From: Rhodoferax potami
GTDB taxonomy: Bacteria; Pseudomonadota; Gammaproteobacteria; Burkholderiales; Burkholderiaceae_C
Direction of reading: 5' to 3'
Assembly (NCBI RefSeq): GCF_032193765.1
Contig: NZ_JAVBIJ010000001.1
Coordinates: 1,116,001 to 1,180,000, forward strand
DNA: 64,000 nt
Part shown: piece after piece, positions 3,931 to 61,029 of the stretch
Position numbering within the stretch: position 1 is the stretch's first letter
How the letters are laid out: each line of letters begins with the position of its first letter
Notes under the pieces: model-generated
Databases searched by the model: none
What the model was told of the DNA's origin: nothing
What the model saw: the letters and a program-made list of their open reading frames with translations, nothing else
Translations under genes and position numbers: made by a program

Positions 3931-5259
3931 ATGCATGATTACCCGGCGCTGATTGGGGCCTTGCAAGCGCAAGGCATTCATTCGCTACTAGCTCAGTTCA
4001 CAGATATCCACGGGGTCGCCAAAGGCAAGTTGGTACCTGTGGCGAACTTGAAGGAGTGGGTGGAGGTCGGCGCTGGCTTCGCCGGGCCTAGCATCTGGGG
4101 TACGGGTTTGCCTCGTTTTGGTCCGCGTAGCGAGTACTACGGGCGCATCATTCCGGAAACCATACGCCCTTTGCCTTTCATGCCCGGAGTGGCGCACGCC
4201 GTCTGTGATGGCTATGCCGGCGGCGTTCCGCTGGAAACGTGCTCGCGGCAGTTGCTCCTGAAAGCCGTTGAGCGGCTGCGCTCGCGCGGTTGGACCATGT
4301 GGGTTGGCATAGAGCCTGAGTTCTTTTTGCTGAATAAGCGAAATGGCCGTTGGGTGATTGCCGATGACGGCGACCAGTTGTCCAAACCGTCTTACGACCT
4401 GAAGTCGATACACCGCAACGCGGCCTATTTGGATGACATGCGCCAGACTTTGGTGAGTTTGGGTTTTGATCTCCAGCAAATCGACCATGAAGATGCGACA
4501 GGGCAGTACGAGGTGAACTACCGATTCGACGACGCACTTGCCGCCGCAGATCGATTCATGCTGTTCAAGATCGCGGCCCATGCGGTGGCCGAGCGGCACG
4601 GAATGGTGTTTAGCGGCATGCCCAAGCCACTGGCCCACGCACCCGGCAGTGGATTGCATTTTCATGTGAGCATTACCAATGCCCAGGGGGAGGCGGTGTT
4701 TAGTAGTGAGCAGGACGCTTTGGGGCTGAGCCCTTTGGGGCACCAGTTTGCAGCTGGTTTGCTGGCGCATGCAGATGCGCTTTCGGCGATTTGCGCACCG
4801 ACCGTTAACAGTTACAAGCGGTTGGCGAGTAGTGCCAGTGCATCCGGGACGACTTGGTCGCCTGTATGGAAATCCTATGGCAACAACAACCGGACCTGTC
4901 TGGTGCGCACAGTGGCGGGGCGCCTGGAATGGCGGCTGCCTGACCCGTCTTGCAATGTGTATGTAGCGATAGCTGCCACTTTATTGGCAGGTCTAGACGG
5001 TATCGACAAGGCTTTAGTGCCTCCGGAGCTTTGCGATGTAGATCTTTATGCGGTGGCGGCCAGCGGTGCCGCTTTACCGCCAGCTCTTCCGCGTACCTTG
5101 ATTGATGCACTTGACTGCTTGGCGAATGACACCGTTTTGGCTGAGGCATTGGGTCATGAGTTCGTCGAGCAGTTTCTGGTCGTCAAGCGGCAGGAGTGGA
5201 GCGAGTTTCATCAAGCTGTCAGTGATTGGGAATTAAATCGCTACGCTGATGCGTATTAA
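3931..5259 (+). CDS. Glutamine-synthetase-family enzyme (type III/GlnT-like; possible gamma-glutamyl-polyamine or -amine synthetase)
   Basis: 442 residues. The GS N-terminal beta-grasp is seen in FTDIHGVAKGKLVP, the catalytic domain in the metal-ligand segments WVGIEPEFF and QYEVNYRF, the GSGLHFHVS motif, and the C-terminal RVETR-like region RLEWRLPDPSCN. The closest remembered family is type III glutamate-ammonia ligase/GlnT, which includes gamma-glutamylmethylamide and gamma-glutamylpolyamine synthetases. Because it follows a polyamine-type transporter, ATP-dependent glutamylation of the imported amine is a reasonable inference, but substrate is not fixed by sequence. ATG 3931 is chosen for the AGGG six bases upstream; an in-frame TTG at 3904 is less likely. 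Confidence 0.8.
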   Translation: MHDYPALIGALQAQGIHSLLAQFTDIHGVAKGKLVPVANLKEWVEVGAGFAGPSIWGTGLPRFGPRSEYYGRIIPETIRPLPFMPGVAHAVCDGYAGGVPLETCSRQLLLKAVERLRSRGWTMWVGIEPEFFLLNKRNGRWVIADDGDQLSKPSYDLKSIHRNAAYLDDMRQTLVSLGFDLQQIDHEDATGQYEVNYRFDDALAAADRFMLFKIAAHAVAERHGMVFSGMPKPLAHAPGSGLHFHVSITNAQGEAVFSSEQDALGLSPLGHQFAAGLLAHADALSAICAPTVNSYKRLASSASASGTTWSPVWKSYGNNNRTCLVRTVAGRLEWRLPDPSCNVYVAIAATLLAGLDGIDKALVPPELCDVDLYAVAASGAALPPALPRTLIDALDCLANDTVLAEALGHEFVEQFLVVKRQEWSEFHQAVSDWELNRYADAY

Positions 5260-18469: not shown

Positions 18470-18621
18470 GAAACCCTGGTGGAAGTGACGTTGAGTCGGG
18501 ATAAACAGTGCTTCACTGTAATGCAAGTGTCGCAAGCTTGCATTGCACTGATTGAATCGAATAACACACAAATAACAATTTGAGATATGATTGTGGCCGA
18601 CTCAGCATATCTGTTGAGTTT

Positions 18622-18710
18622 TTTGGGCAAACCGGTCGAAAGGTCGGGACGCAAAGCCACCGGGCTGTCGCACTTTTTCAGAGTGCCATGCCAGCGGGGT
18701 TGCCGGTTCA
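18622..18710 (+). ncRNA. Cyclic di-GMP-I (GEMM) riboswitch aptamer
   Basis: The conserved core is present in order: GGGCAAACC (18625-18633), CGAAAGGTCGGGACGCAAAG and CCACCGGGC, a variable GCACT...AGTGC hairpin, then GCCAGCGGGGTTGCCGG. The GGGCAAACC, GGGACGCAAAGCC and AGCGGGGTTgCCGG blocks match the Vibrio cholerae Vc2 aptamer as I remember it. It lies 71 bases before the start of the subtilisin-like protease. Downstream, CCTTGT (18750-18755) can pair with ACAAGG (18766-18771) and hide the AAGGA ribosome binding site, a plausible translational expression platform. Confidence 0.9.
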
Positions 18711-30035: not shown

Positions 30036-30089
30036 AAGTGTTTCATTGTAGGGGTGGCGCAAGCATTCCCTGCGTAAAATGCGCGGTGT

Positions 30090-30295
30090 TGGTGCTCGCG
30101 GTGTGGTTCGCATGCCGCAGTTCAACGGGAAGCAGGAGAGGGTGCCGCACGCGGCGGTCCTTAACCTGCGCTGCCCCCGCAACGGTAAGTGGACGTGTCG
30201 CCTTGACACTGCTTTCATCAAAGTCACTGAACGCTTTGAACACGCGCTTGGGAAGACGATGAAGGTTGCCTCCATCAGCCCGGATACCGGCCAAT
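30090..30295 (+). ncRNA. Cobalamin riboswitch 1 (upstream of cobB operon)
   Basis: The conserved parts of the B12 aptamer occur in order: GGGAAGCAGGAGAGGGTG, CTGCCCCCGCAACGGTAA (30171-30188), GTCACTG, GGGAAGACGATGAAGG and the terminal AGCCCGGATACCGGCC (30278-30293). About 100 bases of expression platform follow, including the hairpin TGCGCC AA GGCGCA. No T-run terminator is visible, so control is probably at translation of cobB. It should shut down the synthesis operon when adenosylcobalamin is plentiful. Confidence 0.95.
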
Positions 30296-30393
30296 AAGGT
30301 GGATATGCGCCAAGGCGCATTTCCGTAACGCTCAAGCTCTGGCGGGGAAGCCGGGGAGAGTGAAGCAACACAAGGCATGAGACAGCGCCTGTA

Positions 30394-33292: not shown

Positions 33293-33318
33293 AACATTTT
33301 TTACCAAGGAGCAAAATC

Positions 33319-38537: not shown

Positions 38538-41500
38538 ATGCATTTGCTTTCCACCCGCCCTGGCGGCCATGTCGAAGACGATGGCAATGGCATCGTGCGC
38601 GTGGAGCAAACGCCCGGTGACATCGTGGTGCTCACCGTGGCGGACACTACCTTGTCGCTCCTAGCCGAGGTGGCCAGCAACCTGCCCGCCGATTTTCCGA
38701 GTGTGCGCCTAGCCAACCTGATGTGGCTGCGCCAGCCCGCGTCCACCGACTTGTACATGGACGATGTGCTGCGCCACGCCAAGGCCATCGTCATCGAACA
38801 CCTGGGCGCCCCCAGCGACTGGGCCTATATCGTCGACCAGGTGTGCGAATCTGCCGCCGCGCGCGGCCAGTGGCTGGTGATGGTGTCGGGCGAATGTGTG
38901 GAAGACGCGCAGCTGCTCTTGCGCAGCACCGCTGCGAAAGACGACTGCACCCACCTGTGGCGCTGCCTGCGCGAAGGTGGGCGCGACAACGCCAACAACT
39001 TCTACCAGCTGATTGCCCATGCCGCCTTTGGCCGGGGCGAGCGGCCTGCGCCTGCGCAGGTGCTGCCCGGCGCGGTGCGCTACGAGCCCTTGAATCAAGT
39101 GGCGCCTTGGCGCGAAGGTGCGCCCACAGCCCTGCTGGTGTTTTACAAAGCCCACTTGCAAGCCGGCAACACCGCCGCGTTTGACGCCATGCTGGCCGCG
39201 CTGGCAGGGGAGGGCCTCAACACCCTGGCGCTGGCGCTGGACTCGCTCAAAAACCCCGAGAGCATGGCGTTGCTGCAGACCATGGCAACAGAGCACCACG
39301 TCGATGTGGTGCTCAACGCCACCAGTTTCGCCGTGGGCTCCATCGACGGCAACGACAGCGGCGCCGAGGTACAGCCCGTGTTGCTGGCGGGGGATGCGCC
39401 GGTGCTGCAGCTCATCACCGCGGGTTGTTCGCAAGAGCAGTGGCAAGACGACCCGCACGGCCTCACCCCGCGCGACCTGGCCATGCAAATTGTGCTGCCT
39501 GAGGTGGATGGCCGCATCGGTACCCGGCCCATCAGTTTTAAGGGCTTGGCTTGGCGCTGCGAGCGCGCCGAGATTGATGTGGTGCGCTACCAGCCTGAGA
39601 CAGAGCGCATGGCCTATGTGGCCGCTCTCGCCCGTAAATGGTGCGCATTGCGCTATAAAAAGAGTAGCGACAAGCGCGTGGCGTTGGTGCTGGCCAACTA
39701 CCCGAACGACGACTCGCGGCTCGCCAACGGCGTGGGGCTAGATACACCGGCTTCCACGGTGGTCATCCTCCAAGCTCTGCAAGCCGCTGGCTATGCGACG
39801 GGCGATGTGCCGGCGGACAGCGACGCCCTGATGTCCGACCTGACCCGCGGCATCACCAACAACCTGGACGCCAACGACGCCCGCCCCGCAGGCCAGAGCC
39901 TCGCCATGGCCGACTACCTGCAAGACTTTCACGCGCTGCCGGCTGACAGCCAATCCGCCATCAACACGCTGTGGGGCCTGCCGGAGCAGGACCCGCTGGT
40001 GCGTCATGGCCGCTTCATGATTTCCGGCCAGCGCTATGGCAATGTATTCGTGGGCAATCAGCCCGCCCGCGGGCGCGACCTGGATTTGGTCGCCACCTAC
40101 CACGATGCTGACCTGGTGCCCACGCACAACTACCTGGCCTTTTACTTTTGGATGCGCCGCGTTTATGCGGTGGATGCCGTGGTGCACGTCGGCAAGCACG
40201 GCAACCTGGAGTGGCTGCCCGGCAAGAGTGTGGCGCTGGGTGCGGCCTGCTGGCCCGACGCCATCTTGGGCCCGTTGCCGCACCTGTACCCCTTCATCGT
40301 GAACGACCCCGGCGAGGGCGCGCAGGCCAAGCGCCGCACGCAGGCCGTCATCATCGACCACCTCATGCCCGCCATGACGCGGGCCGAGACCTATGGGCCC
40401 CTGCAGCAGCTCGAAGGCCGCATGGACGAGTATTACGAAGCCCTGTCGCTGGACCCGCGCCGCGCCAAGCTGCTGCGCAACAGCATCTTGGAGCAGGTGC
40501 TGGCCGATGGCTTGCACATTGAGCTGGGTTTTACGAAGCCGGCCGATGATGCTGAGCGCGAAGCGCTGTTGCGCCGGCTGGACGCCTACCTGTGCGAGAT
40601 CAAAGAGTCCCAAATCCGCGACGGGCTGCACACCTTCGGCCAGTCGCCCACAGGGCGCCAGCGGGTGGACACGCTGGTGGCGCTGGCCCGTTACCCCGGC
40701 GGCTCGGGTGCTGCGCAGGCCAGCCTGACGGTAGCCTTGGCGCAAGACTTGGGCCTGACGGACTTTGACGCCCTGAGCCCCGACTGGGCCGCCCCGTGGA
40801 CCGGCGCACGCCCCGCCGTGCTGCAAGCCTTGAGCGATGACCCCTGGCGTCACGCCGGCCACACCCGCGAGCGGGTGGAACTGTTGGCCTCCCGCGTGGT
40901 GCAAGACATGGCAGAGCAGGGCAGTGCGCTGCCCAGTGGCCCGGCAGACTCACCTGAATCTTGGCCCCACACCACCCAAGTACTGCAGCGCCTGCAAACG
41001 GTGCTGGCCCCGCGCCTCGATGCTTGTGGCCCTAATGAGATCACCCATCTGCTGCGCGGCTTGGATGGCCGTTTCATCCCGCCCGGCCCCAGTGGCGCGC
41101 CGTCACGCGGTCGGCCCGATGTGTTGCCCACCGGGCGCAATTTTTACTCGGTGGACACCCGCGCCATCCCCACCCAAACCGCCTACGCCATGGGCGCCAA
41201 GGGCGCAGACCGCGTGGTCGAGCGCCACTTGCAAGACCACGGCGCCTACCCCACGGCCATGGGCCTGTCGGTGTGGGGCACCAGCACCATGCGCACCGGT
41301 GGTGAGGATGTGGCCCAGGCCTTTTCGCTCTTGGGCGTGCGGCCCAAGTGGGCAGCCGGCAGCAACCGCGTCACCGACATCGAAGTCATGCCCATGACCG
41401 TGCTGGGCCGCCCGCGCGTGGATGTGACGCTGCGCGTGTCCGGCTTCTTCCGCGATGCCTTCCCCAATGTGATCGATTTGTTTGACACCGCCGTGCGCGC

Positions 41501-42344
41501 CGTGGCCGCCATCTCGCCCGAGGACGAGGCGGACGATGTCAACCCCATCCGCGTGCGGGTGCAGGCCGAAGCCGCGCAGGCCCAAGCCGCCGGCCATAGC
41601 GATGCGGACGCCGAGCGCGCTTCCACCTGGCGTGTGTTCGGCCCCCGGCCCGGTGGCTATGGCGCGGGCTTGCAAGCGTCGATTGCCAGTGGCAACTGGA
41701 CTGAGCGCTCCGAGTTGGCCGAGGCTTACCTTCGCGCCGGTGCCTTTGCCTACGGCCAGGACAGCGACGGTACAGCCGCCCCCGAGGCTTTTGCCCAGCG
41801 CATGGCCGGGTTGGACGCGGTGCTGCACAACCAGGACAACCGCGAGCACGACATCCTCGACTCCGGCGACTACTACCAGTTCATGGGCGGCATGGCCGCG
41901 GCGGTGGAGCATCTGAGCGGCAAAACAGCCGCCCTGTACCACGGCGACTTCAGCGTGCCCGGCGCACCGCAAATCCGCAGCTTGGGCGAAGAAGTGGCCC
42001 GCGTGGTGCGCTCGCGCGCCGTCAACCCCAAGTGGATAGACGGCATCAAGCGCCACGGCTACAAGGGTGCGTTTGAAATGGCGGCCACCGTCGACTTTTT
42101 GTTTGCCTTTGACGCCACTACCGGCGTGGTGGCCGACCACCAGTACGCGCTGGTGGCCGACGCCTATATGCACGACGACGACACCCGCGCTTTCTTGCAA
42201 CAACACAACCCCGGCGCTTTGCGCAGCATTGGTGAGCGCCTGCTCGAAGCCATGCAGCGCGGCCTGTGGGCCGAGCCCGGCGACCACCGCGAACGCATCC
42301 AAGACCATGTGCTGGCGCTCGAAAACCAATTGGAAGCATCCTGA
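38538..42344 (+). CDS. cobN: Cobaltochelatase subunit CobN
   Basis: 1268 residues, a full-length CobN/BchH-family large subunit. Markers include VVHVGKHGNLEWLPGKSVAL, PFIVNDPGEGAQAKRRTQAV, GYGAGLQA near residue 1040, and SGDYYQFMGGMAAAVEHLSG. It binds hydrogenobyrinate a,c-diamide and inserts cobalt in an ATP-dependent reaction with AAA+ and VWA partners. Here those partners are the chlI/chlD-type unit two bases downstream, not cobS/cobT of the Pseudomonas type. AAAGGCAG precedes the ATG. Confidence 0.96.
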   Translation: MHLLSTRPGGHVEDDGNGIVRVEQTPGDIVVLTVADTTLSLLAEVASNLPADFPSVRLANLMWLRQPASTDLYMDDVLRHAKAIVIEHLGAPSDWAYIVDQVCESAAARGQWLVMVSGECVEDAQLLLRSTAAKDDCTHLWRCLREGGRDNANNFYQLIAHAAFGRGERPAPAQVLPGAVRYEPLNQVAPWREGAPTALLVFYKAHLQAGNTAAFDAMLAALAGEGLNTLALALDSLKNPESMALLQTMATEHHVDVVLNATSFAVGSIDGNDSGAEVQPVLLAGDAPVLQLITAGCSQEQWQDDPHGLTPRDLAMQIVLPEVDGRIGTRPISFKGLAWRCERAEIDVVRYQPETERMAYVAALARKWCALRYKKSSDKRVALVLANYPNDDSRLANGVGLDTPASTVVILQALQAAGYATGDVPADSDALMSDLTRGITNNLDANDARPAGQSLAMADYLQDFHALPADSQSAINTLWGLPEQDPLVRHGRFMISGQRYGNVFVGNQPARGRDLDLVATYHDADLVPTHNYLAFYFWMRRVYAVDAVVHVGKHGNLEWLPGKSVALGAACWPDAILGPLPHLYPFIVNDPGEGAQAKRRTQAVIIDHLMPAMTRAETYGPLQQLEGRMDEYYEALSLDPRRAKLLRNSILEQVLADGLHIELGFTKPADDAEREALLRRLDAYLCEIKESQIRDGLHTFGQSPTGRQRVDTLVALARYPGGSGAAQASLTVALAQDLGLTDFDALSPDWAAPWTGARPAVLQALSDDPWRHAGHTRERVELLASRVVQDMAEQGSALPSGPADSPESWPHTTQVLQRLQTVLAPRLDACGPNEITHLLRGLDGRFIPPGPSGAPSRGRPDVLPTGRNFYSVDTRAIPTQTAYAMGAKGADRVVERHLQDHGAYPTAMGLSVWGTSTMRTGGEDVAQAFSLLGVRPKWAAGSNRVTDIEVMPMTVLGRPRVDVTLRVSGFFRDAFPNVIDLFDTAVRAVAAISPEDEADDVNPIRVRVQAEAAQAQAAGHSDADAERASTWRVFGPRPGGYGAGLQASIASGNWTERSELAEAYLRAGAFAYGQDSDGTAAPEAFAQRMAGLDAVLHNQDNREHDILDSGDYYQFMGGMAAAVEHLSGKTAALYHGDFSVPGAPQIRSLGEEVARVVRSRAVNPKWIDGIKRHGYKGAFEMAATVDFLFAFDATTGVVADHQYALVADAYMHDDDTRAFLQQHNPGALRSIGERLLEAMQRGLWAEPGDHRERIQDHVLALENQLEAS

Positions 42345-42346
42345 CC

Positions 42347-43447
42347 ATGCCCCTTAATCCTGACGTCCGTCCAGACATGCACACCGGCGCCCCGGCATCC
42401 GCGAGCGCGCCTGAGCCCGTGCCTTTCCCCTTCACCGCGCTGGTGGGCCAGCAGGCACTGCAGCGCGCTTTGCTGCTGGTGGCGGTAGACCCCGGCATTG
42501 GTGGGGTGCTCATTGGCGGGCCGCGCGGCACCGCCAAGTCCACCGCTGCGCGCGCCTTGGCCGCCTTGCTGCCGCAGGCTCCGTTTGTCACGCTGCCACT
42601 TGCTGCCAGCCTGGAGCAGCTGGTGGGCACGCTGAGCATTGAAGACGCCTTGCAAAGCGGCGCCGTGCGCCTCTCGCCTGGGCTGGTGGCGCGGGCGCAT
42701 CAGGGCGTGCTGTATGTGGACGAGGTGAATTTGCTGCCCGACGCGCTGGTCGACGCCTTGCTGGACGTAGCCGCCAGCGGCGTCAACACCGTGGAGCGCG
42801 ACGGCATTTCGCAGCGCCACGCCGCGCGCTTTGTGCTGGTGGGCACCATGAACCCGGAGGAGGGCGAGCTGCGCCCCCAACTGCTGGACCGCTTTGGCCT
42901 CTCGGTGTGGCTGCACAACCCTACTGACGCAGCGCAGCGCCAACAGATCGTGCGCAGCCGCTTGCTGTTTGACGCTGACCCTACTGCGGTAGCCGAGAGC
43001 CATGCCGACGCATTGCAAAACCTGGCCGCCAGCGTGCTGGACGCGCAAGCCCTGTTACCCCGCGTGCAGTGGCCGGACGACGCACTGGCCCACGCCGGTG
43101 CGTTGGCGCTAGCTGCCGGAGTCGACGGTGTGCGGGCCGATTTGGTGATGCTGCGCGCTGCCCGCGCATCTGCAGCGCTTGACGGGCGCGATGCGGTAAC
43201 CGTGGCTGATGTGGACGCTGTGGCCGAGCTGGCCTTGCACCATCGCCGGCAGGCTTTTGCCCAGCAACCCACACCACAAGTCTCACAGAAGTCACAACCC
43301 CCCAACCAAAGCCAAGACGCCAGCGCCCCCCAGACGGAATCGGCCGGTGCCGGTAGTGCCGATGGCGATTGGGGCGCCATGCCCCCTGTGCCCGTGGGCA
43401 CCGTGCGACAAGCGGCAGCAGGAGTGCTTCCGCCAAAAAAAGCCTGA
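42347..43447 (+). CDS. ChlI-like AAA+ subunit of cobalt chelatase (zero-frame product)
   Basis: 366 residues. The AAA+ domain has Walker A GGPRGTAKST (about residues 62-71), Walker B GVLYVDEVNLL, the insert typical of Mg-chelatase I subunits, sensor GTMNPEEGELRPQLLDRFGL with Arg finger, and a C-terminal helical lid. A Gln/Ser/Pro-rich linker ends PPKKA and stops. It should form a hexameric motor for CobN. The last codons sit on an A7 run (43435-43441); a one-base backward slip there joins this frame to the VWA domain frame, giving a ChlD-like protein of about 598 residues. ATG 42347 lies two bases after the cobN stop. Confidence 0.88.
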   Translation: MPLNPDVRPDMHTGAPASASAPEPVPFPFTALVGQQALQRALLLVAVDPGIGGVLIGGPRGTAKSTAARALAALLPQAPFVTLPLAASLEQLVGTLSIEDALQSGAVRLSPGLVARAHQGVLYVDEVNLLPDALVDALLDVAASGVNTVERDGISQRHAARFVLVGTMNPEEGELRPQLLDRFGLSVWLHNPTDAAQRQQIVRSRLLFDADPTAVAESHADALQNLAASVLDAQALLPRVQWPDDALAHAGALALAAGVDGVRADLVMLRAARASAALDGRDAVTVADVDAVAELALHHRRQAFAQQPTPQVSQKSQPPNQSQDASAPQTESAGAGSADGDWGAMPPVPVGTVRQAAAGVLPPKKA

Positions 43448-43495
43448 GCCACCCCGGCCCTGCGCCCCAGAGTGCGGCGCGCGGCGGGCGGTGGC
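43420..43495 (+). promoter_or_regulatory. Candidate -1 ribosomal frameshift signal in the chlD-type gene
   Basis: Three elements are in order. AGGAG at 43420-43424 could pair with 16S rRNA ten bases before the slip site. The heptamer A-AAA-AAA (43435-43441) is in phase with the zero frame (CCA AAA AAA GCC TGA). After six bases, GCCACC (43448-43453) pairs with GGTGGC (43490-43495), enclosing GCGCC/GGCGC (43462-43466, 43476-43480). The layout resembles that of E. coli dnaX. An alternative is that the run is really A8 and one base was lost in sequencing. Confidence 0.65.
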
Positions 43496-44142
43496 GCACA
43501 GCGGCTCTACCAGCCGGTGCCCAAGCACCGGCGGTAGCTGTGCGCGCGCCATCCGGCCCGGCAACACAACGGGGCGCCATCGCCTGGCTGCCCACCCTGC
43601 AAGCCAAAGGCCGCAATCCCCTGGTCGCACAGCACCTGCGCTGGCGCGAGCCCAAGGGCAAGCCGTCTACCTTGCATTTGCTGCTGCTGGACACCTCCGG
43701 CTCCATGCGCCAAGGCGGCCGCCTGGCGCGGGCCAAAGGCTACGCCGCCCAAGTGCTGGAGCAAGCCGCCCGCGCGGGCGACCATGTGGCGCTGTTGTGC
43801 TTTGGCGGGCAGGGCGTAGAAGTGCTGGTGCCCCCCGGCCCCGCACGCCGCGCGGCTGCAGTGCGCGTGCAACAGCGCGGCGGTGGTGGCGGCACGCCCA
43901 TGGCGCAGGCTATGGCGGCTGCCGACAACCTCATGGCCCAACACCGCCGGGTACGCGGCACCCTGGGCAGTGCCAACACCGTGCTTTGGTTGCTGACCGA
44001 CGGTCGTACCCTGGATCAACCGCGCACACCACAAGGCGCCGATCAATTGGTGGTGGTGGACTTCGACGACGCCAAGGTCAAGGTAGGGCGCTGTGCAGAC
44101 TGGGCTGTGCGCTGGGGGGCAGAGTACCGGCACGGTGACTAG
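43441..44142 (+). CDS. VWA (ChlD C-terminal) domain, read in the -1 frame
   Basis: 233 residues if entered by slippage at 43441. After a basic, Pro/Ala-rich linker comes REPKGKPSTLHLLLLDTSGSM, with the MIDAS motif DTSGS, then a threonine ligand in GGGTPMAQAM and an Asp in LLTDGRTLD. This is the integrin-I-like VWA domain of chelatase D subunits. As a free-standing gene it would need a TTG at 43369 with no ribosome binding site, inside the ChlI frame, so a fused ChlD product is more convincing. It should bridge the AAA+ ring to CobN. Confidence 0.8.
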   Translation, partial: SLSHPGPAPQSAARGGRWRTAALPAGAQAPAVAVRAPSGPATQRGAIAWLPTLQAKGRNPLVAQHLRWREPKGKPSTLHLLLLDTSGSMRQGGRLARAKGYAAQVLEQAARAGDHVALLCFGGQGVEVLVPPGPARRAAAVRVQQRGGGGGTPMAQAMAAADNLMAQHRRVRGTLGSANTVLWLLTDGRTLDQPRTPQGADQLVVVDFDDAKVKVGRCADWAVRWGAEYRHGD

Positions 44143-51771: not shown

Positions 51772-52980
51772 TCACAGCGTCACGCTCCACTGCACCACCG
51801 GTCGGCTGGGCTGCCAGCCTCGCATGCGGCCTAGGGGCGCGGCTTGCGCCAACTCGATGCGCAGCAGCTCGCCGCCATGCTGGGCGTGCAGGTGCAGCAG
51901 GGCAGACTCGGTTTCCAGCGTTACCGCGTTCACCACCAAGCGGGTGCCTAGCGGTGCAGTGGCTTGCAGCTGGGCAAACAGCGCCAAGTCAAACCCGCCA
52001 CCCACAAAAATGGCGTTGGGTTTGGGCAAGCTCGCCAGCATGTCGGGCGTGTGGCCGTGGTGCACCGTCAGGCGGTGGTCTATGCCGAAGTTCGCCGCAT
52101 TGCTGCGGATGTTGGTGACGCGCTCGGCGTGCTGCTCCACCGCGCTGGAGCTGCCACCTGCCAGGCACCACTCCACCGACACCGAGCCCGAGCCCGCGCC
52201 CAGGTCCCACAGGTGTTCGCCGGGGCGGGGCGCGAGTGCGGCCAGCGTCAAGGCGCGTATGGGTAATTTGGTGATTTGCCCGTCGCTGGCAAAGCCCGCG
52301 TCTGGCAGGCCGGGGCTGCGGGGCAGGCCTTTGAATGCGGTGTCCGTGCTCGCCACTTGCACGGCCACGGCCACCGGGGCTTGGATGTTGGCAAAGTCGA
52401 GTGCATCCGCAGTGGTGTGGCTGATGCGTTCACGCGTGCCGCCCAAGGCTTCCAGCACCCACACGTTAGAAGCACCGCAGCGTTGGGTTGTGAGCCACTG
52501 GGCAAATTCACCCACCGCCGCCGCATCGCGCAACAGGCAGATCAACTGCGCGCCGGGGTGCAGGCTACTGCGGGTGCGGGCAAAGGGCGCGGCGTGCAGG
52601 CCGAAGCAGTGCACCGCCTCCAGCCGCCAGGCCAGACGCGCGGCTGCCAGGGAAAGGGTGGAAGGTGCTGGGTGAGCCACCCATTCGCCCGCTTGCAAAT
52701 GCGCCGCCAGGCTACCACCCGCCCCAAACCAGAACGGGTCGCCCGAGGCCAGCACCACGACCGGCTGGCCGCGCAGGGCGAGCACAGGCGCCACGTCAAA
52801 AGGCACGGGCCATTCAATGCCCCGGCTGCCCACGTCTGCCAGCGCCAAGTGGCGTGGCCCGCCGAACACGTGCTGCGCGCGCGCCAGTGCCGAGCGGCTA
52901 CCATCGCCAAGACCATGCAAGCCATCTTCACCAATACCAATGATTGATAACCAGGGTTTAGAGAGCCAAGGTTCAGACAT
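51772..52980 (-). CDS. cobL: Precorrin-6Y C5,15-methyltransferase (decarboxylating)
   Basis: 402 residues in two domains, as in the fused CobL: an N-terminal tetrapyrrole methylase (CbiE-like, WLSIIGIGEDGLHGLG and VVVLASGDPFWFGAG) and a C-terminal Rossmann methylase/decarboxylase (CbiT-like, LWDLGAGSGSVSVEWCLA and FVGGGFDLALF). It methylates C5 and C15 and removes the acetate carboxyl on C12. Its ATG (52980-52978) lies on the same CATG as the cobK start on the other strand, so the two genes share no intergenic DNA. A GTG 42 bases upstream in cobK is a possible longer start. Confidence 0.94.
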   Translation of the reverse strand: MSEPWLSKPWLSIIGIGEDGLHGLGDGSRSALARAQHVFGGPRHLALADVGSRGIEWPVPFDVAPVLALRGQPVVVLASGDPFWFGAGGSLAAHLQAGEWVAHPAPSTLSLAAARLAWRLEAVHCFGLHAAPFARTRSSLHPGAQLICLLRDAAAVGEFAQWLTTQRCGASNVWVLEALGGTRERISHTTADALDFANIQAPVAVAVQVASTDTAFKGLPRSPGLPDAGFASDGQITKLPIRALTLAALAPRPGEHLWDLGAGSGSVSVEWCLAGGSSSAVEQHAERVTNIRSNAANFGIDHRLTVHHGHTPDMLASLPKPNAIFVGGGFDLALFAQLQATAPLGTRLVVNAVTLETESALLHLHAQHGGELLRIELAQAAPLGRMRGWQPSRPVVQWSVTL

Positions 52981-53728
52981 GGCGCGCGGCTCCTTGCGGG
53001 TGTTGTTGCTGGGCGGTACCACCGAGGCCAGTCGCCTGGCACAGGCCTTGGCGCAGGCCGGGGTGGATGCGGTGTTTTCTTACGCAGGCCGTACCGACGC
53101 GCCCATCGCCCAGCCGCTGCCCACCCGCGTGGGCGGCTTTGGTGGGGTGGCGGGGCTGCAGGCCTTTTTGCAAGCCGCGCGCATCAGCCATGTGGTGGAC
53201 GCCACCCACCCTTTTGCCGCCCAAATGAGCAGCAACGCGGTGCAGGCCTGTGCAGCCGCTGGCGTGCCCCTGCTGGCACTCGAGCGGCCCGCCTGGCAGG
53301 CGCAGGGTGGCGATGTGTGGACGCATGTGGCGAATATCGCAGCCGCCGTGCAAGCCTTGCCTGATGAGCCCGCCCGCGTGTTTTTGGCCATTGGCAAGCA
53401 GAACCTGGCGCCGTTTTTGGCATGTAGTCAGCACTGGTACCTGTTGCGCTTGGTGGACCCGGTGCTGGACTTGCCCGCCGCGCGCGGCCATGTGGTGCTG
53501 GACCGCGGCCCCTTCACGCTGCAGGGCGACCGCGCCTTGCTGCAGGCGCATGGCATCACGCACATCGTCGCCAAAAACTCCGGCGGCGCGGGTGCAGAGG
53601 CCAAGCTGACAGCCGCCCGTGAATTGGGCTTGCCCGTCATCCTGATAGACCGGCCGCACATTCCTAGCCGCCACACCGTGGGCAGCGTGCCCGAGGTGCT
53701 GCGCTGGCTGGGCGTGGCGGGCGGTTGA
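52979..53728 (+). CDS. cobK: Precorrin-6A reductase
   Basis: 249 residues. The family begins VLLLGGTTEASRLAQAL, with VVDATHPFAAQMS and the C-terminal IVAKNSGGAGAEAKLTAAREL. It reduces precorrin-6A with NADPH. The start ATG 52979 shares CATG with the divergent cobL start; an ATG at 52941 inside cobL is an alternative. It converges with cobJ, leaving five bases between their stops. It is the only plus-strand gene within the ring-modification block. Confidence 0.94.
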   Translation: MARGSLRVLLLGGTTEASRLAQALAQAGVDAVFSYAGRTDAPIAQPLPTRVGGFGGVAGLQAFLQAARISHVVDATHPFAAQMSSNAVQACAAAGVPLLALERPAWQAQGGDVWTHVANIAAAVQALPDEPARVFLAIGKQNLAPFLACSQHWYLLRLVDPVLDLPAARGHVVLDRGPFTLQGDRALLQAHGITHIVAKNSGGAGAEAKLTAARELGLPVILIDRPHIPSRHTVGSVPEVLRWLGVAGG

Positions 53729-53733
53729 AACTT

Positions 53734-54483
53734 TCATAGCGCCGAGCGCGGGGTGTAAACAAAGCGGCCCACGTGGCGGGTGGTGCTGTTGCCCACGATG
53801 ACCACAGTGCGCATGTCCGCCATTTCGGGGGTGGCGTCACCCAGTCGCACGGTGAGCAGCTTTTCTTCCGGGGTGCTCACAGCGCGGGCAAAGGTGATCA
53901 GGCGGTCCGGGCCGCAGGCTTCCAGCAGCACCTGCAGCACGCGGCCAAAGGTATGCGGGCGGCTAGTGGAGCGGGGGTTGTAAAACGCCATCGCAAAGTC
54001 GGCCCCGGCGGCGGCGCGCACCCGGGCTTCAATCAGCTCGGCAGGTTTGAGGTTGTCGCTGAGGTTGATGGCGCAAAAGTCGTGGCCCAGGGGCGCACCG
54101 GCTTTGGCTGCAGCGGCCAGCATGGCGGTGATGCCGGGCAGCACGCGAATATCGAGCGCCTGCCAGTCGGGCCGGCCTTCCAGCGCTTCAAACACGGCAG
54201 CCGCCATGGCAAACACGCCGGGGTCGCCAGAAGACACGATCACCACCTGCTTGCCCTCAGCCGCCATTTGTAGGGCGGCGCGGGCGCGGTCCATCTCGAC
54301 CCGGTTGTCAGATGCGTGCAGCGTCAGGCCGGGGCGCGGCGCAATGCGCGCCACGTAGGGGATGTAGCCCACGATGTCGGTGGCAGCGTCTATGGCGGCA
54401 GTCACTTCGGGCGTGACCAGTTGCGCGTCGCCCGGGCCCAGGCCGGCGATGCACAGCGTGCCTGCTGCCAGTGGTGTGGTCAT
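53734..54483 (-). CDS. cobJ: Precorrin-3B C17-methyltransferase
   Basis: 249 residues. Methylase motifs are LCIAGLGPGDAQLVTPEV, VVIVSSGDPGVFAMA and VLPGITAMLAAAAKAGAP, with AFYNPRSTSRPHTFGR typical of CobJ. It performs the ring contraction with C17 methylation, converting precorrin-3B to precorrin-4. ATGA overlap with cobI upstream. Confidence 0.95.
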   Translation of the reverse strand: MTTPLAAGTLCIAGLGPGDAQLVTPEVTAAIDAATDIVGYIPYVARIAPRPGLTLHASDNRVEMDRARAALQMAAEGKQVVIVSSGDPGVFAMAAAVFEALEGRPDWQALDIRVLPGITAMLAAAAKAGAPLGHDFCAINLSDNLKPAELIEARVRAAAGADFAMAFYNPRSTSRPHTFGRVLQVLLEACGPDRLITFARAVSTPEEKLLTVRLGDATPEMADMRTVVIVGNSTTRHVGRFVYTPRSAL

Positions 54484-55210
54484 TCCTGCACCTCGGGGCG
54501 GCGGCCGCTGCCGTGCACCAGCACGATGGCGAAGTAGGGGCAGTCGGTGCCGTCCACGTCGGCCAGCTTCATGACGCGCTCTCCGGGCATGGTGCCGCGC
54601 TCGACCAACCAGGCTTGGTCCAAGCGGCCGGCTTTGGCCAGCGCGCTGCGCACGCGGGGCAGGTTGCGGCCGGTTTTCATGACCACGAGTGCGTCGGCGG
54701 TTTGCATGTGGCGCACCAGCTCGTCTTCAGGCAGGGTGCCCATGAGCACGGTCATCACGTCGTCGCCCCAGGTGATGGGCACGCCGGTGGCGGACCAGCA
54801 GCCCACCATGCCGGGGATGCCGGGGATCACCTCCACCGTGGCGCGACCTTGCAGCCGGGTGTAGAGGTGCATGAAGGAGCCATAAAAAAACGGGTCGCCT
54901 TCGCAGAGCACCAGCACGTCTTCAGTTTGGGCAAGTGTGGCCAGGCGGTCCGCCCAGTCGTCGTAAAACGTGGCCAGGCAGTGGATGTATTCAGGGCTGT
55001 CAAAAGGCAGCTCGGTGGTCACCGGGTATTCCATGGGGTACTCGGTGGCGCCGGGCAGCAACATGCCTTCGACAATGCGGCGCGCCTGGCCGGGCCGGCC
55101 TTTTTTGCGGAAATAGGCCACGTGGCCGGCCGCTCGGATGGCGCGGTCGGAGCGCACGCTCATCAAATCGGGGTCACCGGGCCCAGGCCCGCGCAGAGGA
55201 TGCGTCCCAT
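54480..55210 (-). CDS. cobI: Precorrin-2 C20-methyltransferase, frameshifted near the N-terminus
   Basis: About 243 residues once restored. The ATG at 55210 overlaps the cobH stop (TGATG) and begins MGRILCAGLGP, the expected first strand and glycine motif; reading then passes into a stop within four codons (VTPI). One base later the frame continues GDPDLMSVRSDRAIRAAG and the rest of the enzyme (LVLCEGDPFFYGSFMHLYTR, VIPGIPGMVGCW). A single missing base near 55176-55181 (CCGGG where CCCGGG is expected on the plus strand) explains this. It methylates C20 of precorrin-2. Neighbour order and an intact body suggest a functional gene and a sequence error, but a true mutation is possible. Confidence 0.88.
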
Positions 55211-60763: not shown

Positions 60764-60827
60764 AACTGCGTTCTGGGCGGGTGTCGCTGGCGGTTATTCC
60801 AGCGGTGCGCCGCTGCTATCATTGACC

Positions 60828-60992
60828 GCTTCAGGTGCCCCTTGCCACGGCTTGGGGAGAATCGGGAAGACGGTGTGAATCCGTCGCGTGCCCAACGCTG
60901 TAAGGAGGATGACCCGCGCTGTATGCCACTGGCCGCCAAGGCCGGGAAGGTGCGTGGGGTCAGGTGATTCCGAGCCAGAAGACCGGCCTGAT
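60828..60992 (+). ncRNA. Cobalamin riboswitch 2 (upstream of cobT)
   Basis: The conserved parts are GGGAAGACGGTGTGAATCCG, GCGTGCCCAACGCTGTAA, ATGCCACTGG, GGGAAGGTGCG and the terminal GAGCCAGAAGACCGGCC. It lies between cobQ and cobT. CCGGCCT (60983-60989) can pair with AGGCCGG (61010-61016), which overlaps the downstream terminator loop, so ligand binding can decide between antiterminator and terminator. Confidence 0.95.
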
Positions 60993-61001
60993 GTTGTTTA
61001 T

Positions 61002-61029
61002 GCACAGCAAGGCCGGGCTGTGCTTTTTT
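61002..61029 (+). terminator. Expression-platform terminator of cobalamin riboswitch 2
   Basis: GCACAGC (61002-61008), an 8-base loop, GCTGTGC (61017-61023), then six T. It precedes ATG 61051 of cobT and would stop transcription when B12 is bound. Confidence 0.9.

Follow-up and report, generated by a model that had tools for sequence, protein, structure and literature searches.

Frameshifting in the chlD family was reported in 2013 by Antonov et al. as a "magnesium chelatase" frameshift cluster that took in Delftia, Burkholderia and Pseudomonas, and published cassettes of this family frameshifted in E. coli at 10%, 40% and 63% when they had 7, 9 and 11 As, respectively (PMC3711429). The subject was reviewed in 2016, when triplex formation and divalent cation binding were raised for the Pseudomonas stem (PMC5009743), and the fs-chlD genes were treated by Kuznetsov et al. 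in 2022 (PMC9227772). A sequence-only reading of the present DNA had stated that such frameshifting was already on record, and these three papers, in their accessible text, bear this out; among the matches listed in the open-licence literature, no other title on chlD frameshifting was found.

The gene described here lies in a window of 64,000 nucleotides from the 4.0-Mb genome of Rhodoferax potami. As in the fs-chlD genes in the accessible parts of these descriptions, its AAA+ and VWA halves stand in a -1 relation, A_AAA_AAR occupies the overlap, a downstream structure follows and the context is that of cobN. The Rhodoferax-type gene is not named in the accessible parts of PMC3711429, PMC5009743 and PMC9227772, and the SD-like element, the stem fixed at +6 and the C_CCA_AAR sites are absent from the same parts of the published descriptions; Antonov 2020 may hold them. 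The dnaX gene of E. coli also combines an AAA heptamer with an upstream SD-like element and a downstream stem (accessible text of PMC5009743). It is an unrelated gene, with A_AAA_AAG where the chlD gene here has A_AAA_AAA. Furthermore, the shift in dnaX truncates the protein and gives the short product, whereas in chlD it would extend the protein and give the long one; the earlier label "dnaX-like" thus fits the layout of the signal but not its outcome. Systems with separate ChlI/BchI and ChlD/BchD, or CobS and CobT, follow the same logic of an AAA+ and an AAA+-VWA subunit, using two genes where there is one here.

Taking the comparisons below together, we conclude with a probability of about 0.92 that translation of a chlD-type cobalt-chelatase gene in the window involves a programmed -1 ribosomal frameshift, which very probably adds a well-supported case to the chlD frameshifts already published.

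The chlD locus and its genomic context

The coordinates of the locus are collected in Table 1. The zero-frame product matches the Pfam families AAA_lid_2, Mg_chelatase and AAA_5, its best solved relatives are BchI/ChlI, and it is 94% identical to the protein of Rhodoferax bucti, the nearest named relative in the searches. The -1 frame stays open as far as its own TGA and contains a Pfam VWA_2 match at about 43678-44004, which resembles the BchD VWA structure 2x31, so that a ChlI-like AAA+ half and a ChlD-like VWA half occupy different frames. The shifted product, by arithmetic from the frames, would have 598 residues; this size, the 366 residues of the unshifted product and the coordinates given earlier were all correct on direct reading of the sequence. 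The NCBIfam model of a putative cobaltochelatase, TIGR02442, has a cut-off of 779.45 bits that is not reached, the two halves, scored separately, giving 388.6 and 78.5 bits. Automatic annotation may label such a chlD gene as broken, or split it into two.

Table 1. Features of the chlD locus, in window coordinates
Feature	Position	Strand	Basis or detail
Cobalamin riboswitch heading the same-strand cobB...cobW-cobN-chlD run	30073..30309	+	Rfam RF00174, 73 bits
cobN, large cobaltochelatase subunit	38538..42344	+	TIGR02257, 1528 bits, cut-off 822
Zero-frame ORF, ChlI-like AAA+ product, 366 aa	42347..43447	+	ATG 42347, TGA 43445-43447
AGGAG, SD-like element	43420..43424	+	10 nt between AGGAG and A7
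A_AAA_AAA slippery heptamer, in phase	43435..43441	+	read directly; 127 distinct loci carry a heptamer
-1 frame after the slip: linker and VWA domain, end of predicted 598-aa product	43435..44142	+	TGA at 44142
6-nt spacer: one codon GCC and zero-frame stop TGA	43442..43447	+	read directly
Downstream stem	43448..43495	+	basal helix 43448-43453 with 43490-43495

At the junction the codons read CCG CCA AAA AAA GCC TGA. The AGGAG element and the stem, with arms GCCACC and GGTGGC, lie where the sequence-only reading had placed them, ten bases before and six bases after the A7 run, which is a layout of the dnaX type (an SD-like element some 10 nt before the heptamer and a stem some 6 nt after it) with no claim that the gene belongs with dnaX itself.

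Frameshifting of chlD was reportedly tied to cobN loci by Antonov in 2020. In the window, cobN ends 2 nt before the chlD start codon, and CobB, an adenosyltransferase, CobW and CobN are encoded on one strand behind the cobalamin riboswitch; we infer that the run from cobB through cobW and cobN to chlD forms one transcript. Further on are CobF, CobM, a CobL-type protein (CbiE/CbiT), CobJ, CobI, CobH, CbiB, CobQ and the DBI phosphoribosyltransferase, together with a CobG-like protein that scores just under its cut-off, CobG being a marker of the aerobic route. Riboswitches were seen at 30073-30309, 60816-61005 and 18616-18707, two of them cobalamin and one c-di-GMP-I. An ORF on the minus strand inside the cob cluster (52973-53737) had no NCBIfam match at 1e-10; from its position, we would guess at a CobK-type reductase.

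The host genome has cobN, but neither CobS (TIGR01650) nor CobT (TIGR01651) was matched at E <= 0.001, and the matches listed included no further ChlI/ChlD-like gene apart from weak AAA+ relatives. With no alternative subunit gene found, it is a clean case of chlD frameshifting. Each of 14 selected genomes, among them G387 with its fused gene, likewise had one ChlI-type match (E <= 1e-20), namely the chlD gene itself, and none had a CobS match over the cut-off, with weak CobS matches in 5. Among 80 named loci, cobN lay just upstream in 77; there was no match at L079 and L131, and L073 was outside the assessment.

Slip site, SD-like element and stem across relatives

A family survey found a chlD gene in 49 of 399 genomes, the window's included (E <= 1e-70). 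The VWA part was in the -1 frame with an in-phase slippery heptamer in 48 of these 49 loci and in an unbroken fusion in one (L149), and each of 23 genera had at least one slip-site locus. The programmed frameshift proposed in the sequence-only reading is supported by this distribution: the site in the overlap of the two frames is kept in relatives, and the stem, as described below, recurs at a fixed offset from it. For the larger comparison, 146 classified rows comprised 131 with the -1 relation, 2 fused (L131, L149) and 13 without a VWA match, these last being 12 ChlI-type relatives at 42-48% identity plus L073. Three more copies of the window's own gene brought the -1 set to 134 rows, and removing L079 and L011, which have no site, left 132 rows, or 127 distinct loci. 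L079, a MAG, has an early stop within its AAA+ match; in L011 a ChlI-like gene precedes a VWA match that lies in the -1 frame, with no slip site. Six genomes (L172, L174, L176, L178, L179, L180) stand outside the 127. We set four locus groups ourselves: Rhodoferax (8 loci), Comamonadaceae-like (51), Burkholderia type (21) and Pseudomonas type (47), the last defined by the A6G heptamer and including a few others, e.g. Denitromonas and Pantoea. At L073 (Cupriavidus basilensis OR16, near 5000-5035) the A7-GCC-TGA sequence is intact, with no VWA match found downstream.

The heptamers of the 127 loci were AAAAAAA (76), AAAAAAG (48), CCCAAAG (2) and CCCAAAA (1), and the zero-frame stop followed 3 nt after the heptamer in 123 loci, 24 nt after it in 3 and directly in 1. 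Upstream in the same zero frames, other in-phase X_XXY_YYZ heptamers numbered 20 in 43,670 codons; since 123 of 127 loci have theirs exactly 3 nt before the stop, the heptamer is there beyond chance. Lysine codons of the zero frames are mostly AAG (3 AAA versus 18 AAG in Rhodoferax). The heptamer, the SD-like GGAG and the stem at its fixed offset all exceed synonymous-codon nulls.

Pairing with the anti-SD sequence was scored in windows of 8 nt that ended 5-10 nt upstream of the heptamer, against 60 synonymous shuffles per locus. It was stronger than in the shuffles for Rhodoferax loci, with z to -5.9, and for Comamonadaceae-like loci, with z to -10; in the Burkholderia type it was weak in energy yet beyond the null (about -2.3 versus -0.9 kcal/mol, z to -5.6). 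Pseudomonas-type loci (part of L080-L139) showed no excess at 7-14 nt before the heptamer and a weak one 1-6 nt before it (z to -7.5), a spacing unlike that of Rhodoferax. A GGAG at spacer 10 was present in 24 of the 59 Rhodoferax and Comamonadaceae-like loci, compared with 25 of 20,044 in-phase positions elsewhere, and in 11 of the 23 genera one member or more had GGAG at spacer 8-12; 16 of the 59 loci were without any of the SD-like motifs sought.

In 51 of the same 59 loci the heptamer was followed, at a distance of exactly 6 nt, by a perfect 6-bp Watson-Crick helix, built from 10 different arms, while 20 shuffles gave a mean of 10.3. The corresponding counts were 17 of 21 for the Burkholderia type and 31 of 47 for the Pseudomonas type (2 arms each), and a helix at offset 5-7 occurred in at least one member of 21 of the 23 genera and in all members of 18. 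In L155, L156 and L157, where the stop comes 24 nt after the heptamer, the stem still begins at 6 nt, which indicates that it is placed relative to the slip site and not to the stop.

Folding energy was compared with 80 synonymous shuffles, the resulting z values, like those for anti-SD pairing, being overstated because related sequences are not independent. Over 0-70 nt, the mean z was -2.4 for Rhodoferax (8 of 8 loci at p <= 0.05), -1.8 for the Comamonadaceae-like group (31 of 51), -0.4 for the Burkholderia type (5 of 21) and -1.7 for the Pseudomonas type (22 of 47); over 0-50 nt, it was -1.2 for Rhodoferax (1 of 8) and -2.6 for the Pseudomonas type (38 of 47), and windows further downstream gave mean values of -0.4 to +0.7. 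On two measures a downstream RNA structure does not stand out, in opposition to the synonymous shuffles and the anchored arms. Taken alone, the window's stem had no stability advantage over dinucleotide shuffles (z -0.64), 43 of 200 of which folded at least as well, and an unanchored count on a MAFFT alignment found 73.0% of cells paired against a shuffled mean of 68.1%, and 81.9% with partners slid by -3. Because many 3' arms were out of register in that alignment, the anchored arm search was used in its place. Across the relatives, the nearly fixed parts of the cassette are the X_XXY_YYZ heptamer, the stop one codon on and the stem at +6, and the SD-like element, the letters of the heptamer and the sequence of the stem vary by lineage.

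Predicted mechanism and competing explanations

According to the layout, ribosomes would first translate the AAA+ half, and at A_AAA_AAA two lysine tRNAs would re-pair one base back, helped by the stem in front of them and by AGGAG, ten bases back, which would pair with the tail of the 16S rRNA. Unshifted ribosomes would read GCC-TGA and release a 366-residue AAA+ subunit in the role of ChlI/CobS, and shifted ribosomes would enter the VWA domain and complete a 598-residue AAA+-VWA subunit in the role of ChlD/CobT. Both proteins would thus come from one gene, slip efficiency would fix their ratio, and in aerobic B12 synthesis they may act together with CobN. That efficiency, the part played by each stimulator and the assembly of the enzyme are, like the two products, inferred. 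The six 5'-arm positions are 83% pyrimidine in Rhodoferax loci and 67% in Pseudomonas-type loci, and the cassette could conceivably also act as a regulator, its pyrimidine/purine stem, or the unfolding of the stem, sensing a metal ion or B12 intermediate. We consider this unlikely; if true, cobalt supply would tune how much of the short chelatase subunit is made relative to the long one.

If RNA polymerase slipped on the A run, mRNAs of varied length would arise and be read normally by ribosomes. The A7 run is a homopolymer, and a published survey states, in its accessible part, that A7 may cause transcriptional slippage (PMC4066793). However, the run is lost with the two-tRNA pattern kept in the 48 of 127 loci with A6G and in the three with C_CCA_AAR, to which three C_CCA_AAG genomes outside the 127 can be added, and the target of the conserved SD-like element and stem is the ribosome. 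The replacement takes place at the same codon (L144, L147, L145 and L173-L177 have C_CCA_AAG or C_CCA_AAA in place of the slip site). Genus g49, with the gene in 6 of 11 genomes, has A_AAA_AAA (1), A_AAA_AAG (1) and C_CCA_AAG (4) there, and the single gene found in the 21 genomes of genus g36 has C_CCA_AAA. The letters change but X_XXY_YYZ is kept, and this exchange, above all in g49, favours simultaneous slippage of two tRNAs over polymerase slippage, which we regard as quite unlikely. The natural replacement of A_AAA_AAR by C_CCA_AAG is in this respect an evolutionary argument for tandem slippage; C_CC.A_AA.G, with the IS3 pseudoknot, gave the highest frequency measured in E. coli, 54%, in the accessible part of PMC4066793.

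It is very unlikely that the VWA part is a separate gene translated by internal initiation or reinitiation. AGGAG does lie close to the junction, and 34 of the 127 loci have ATG, GTG or TTG with a loosely defined SD-like motif between the opening of the -1 frame and the VWA match; none of the 8 Rhodoferax loci, however, has an SD-preceded start, 30 of the 127 lack any ATG, GTG or TTG in that interval, and in 15 of 47 Pseudomonas-type loci the -1 frame becomes open just 15 nt ahead of the heptamer. Independent starts would also leave no reason for keeping the slip heptamer.

Long A runs are prone to error, and the sequence-only reading had allowed that one A was missed, so that the true gene would be an unbroken fusion. 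Such a fusion exists in the family: in L149/L181 (G387:C66:5464 onward, genus g113) AAA+ and VWA share one unbroken frame. L149 has no in-phase heptamer, and G387 yielded neither CobS nor another ChlI-type gene, so the shift is dispensable in some relatives; four other g113 genomes carry the A7 site. Two one-base differences common to both relatives elsewhere in the window also speak for faults in the sequence. On the other side, the 8 distinct Rhodoferax-type sequences (L002, the window's own, L003-L007, L032 and L061) all have A7-GCC-TGA with the -1 relation and include no A8 run or unbroken frame, the -1 relation recurs in 127 distinct loci, and at C_CCA_AAG and C_CCA_AAA sites there is no long run that could be miscalled. 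We consequently give a missed base hardly any credence. A pseudogene decaying through a frame break is just as hard to credit, given that the VWA frame is 87-92% identical in Rhodoferax-type relatives and the break falls at the same codon across genera, even though TIGR02442 matches only in pieces and under its cut-off.

Three other genes of the window had been said to lack one base. Two such one-base length differences from both relatives were located, near 55182 and 56995, close to the starts of the cobI and cobG ORFs, and may be errors in the window's sequence; the third was not identified. Between about 31 and 44 kb, a list of one- and two-base differences (gaps of at least 3 bases fall outside it) holds one difference within a T run at 33301, a pair at 42370/42374 whose members compensate each other, and a two-base difference at 43975 in the VWA part, with both frames still reaching their stops.
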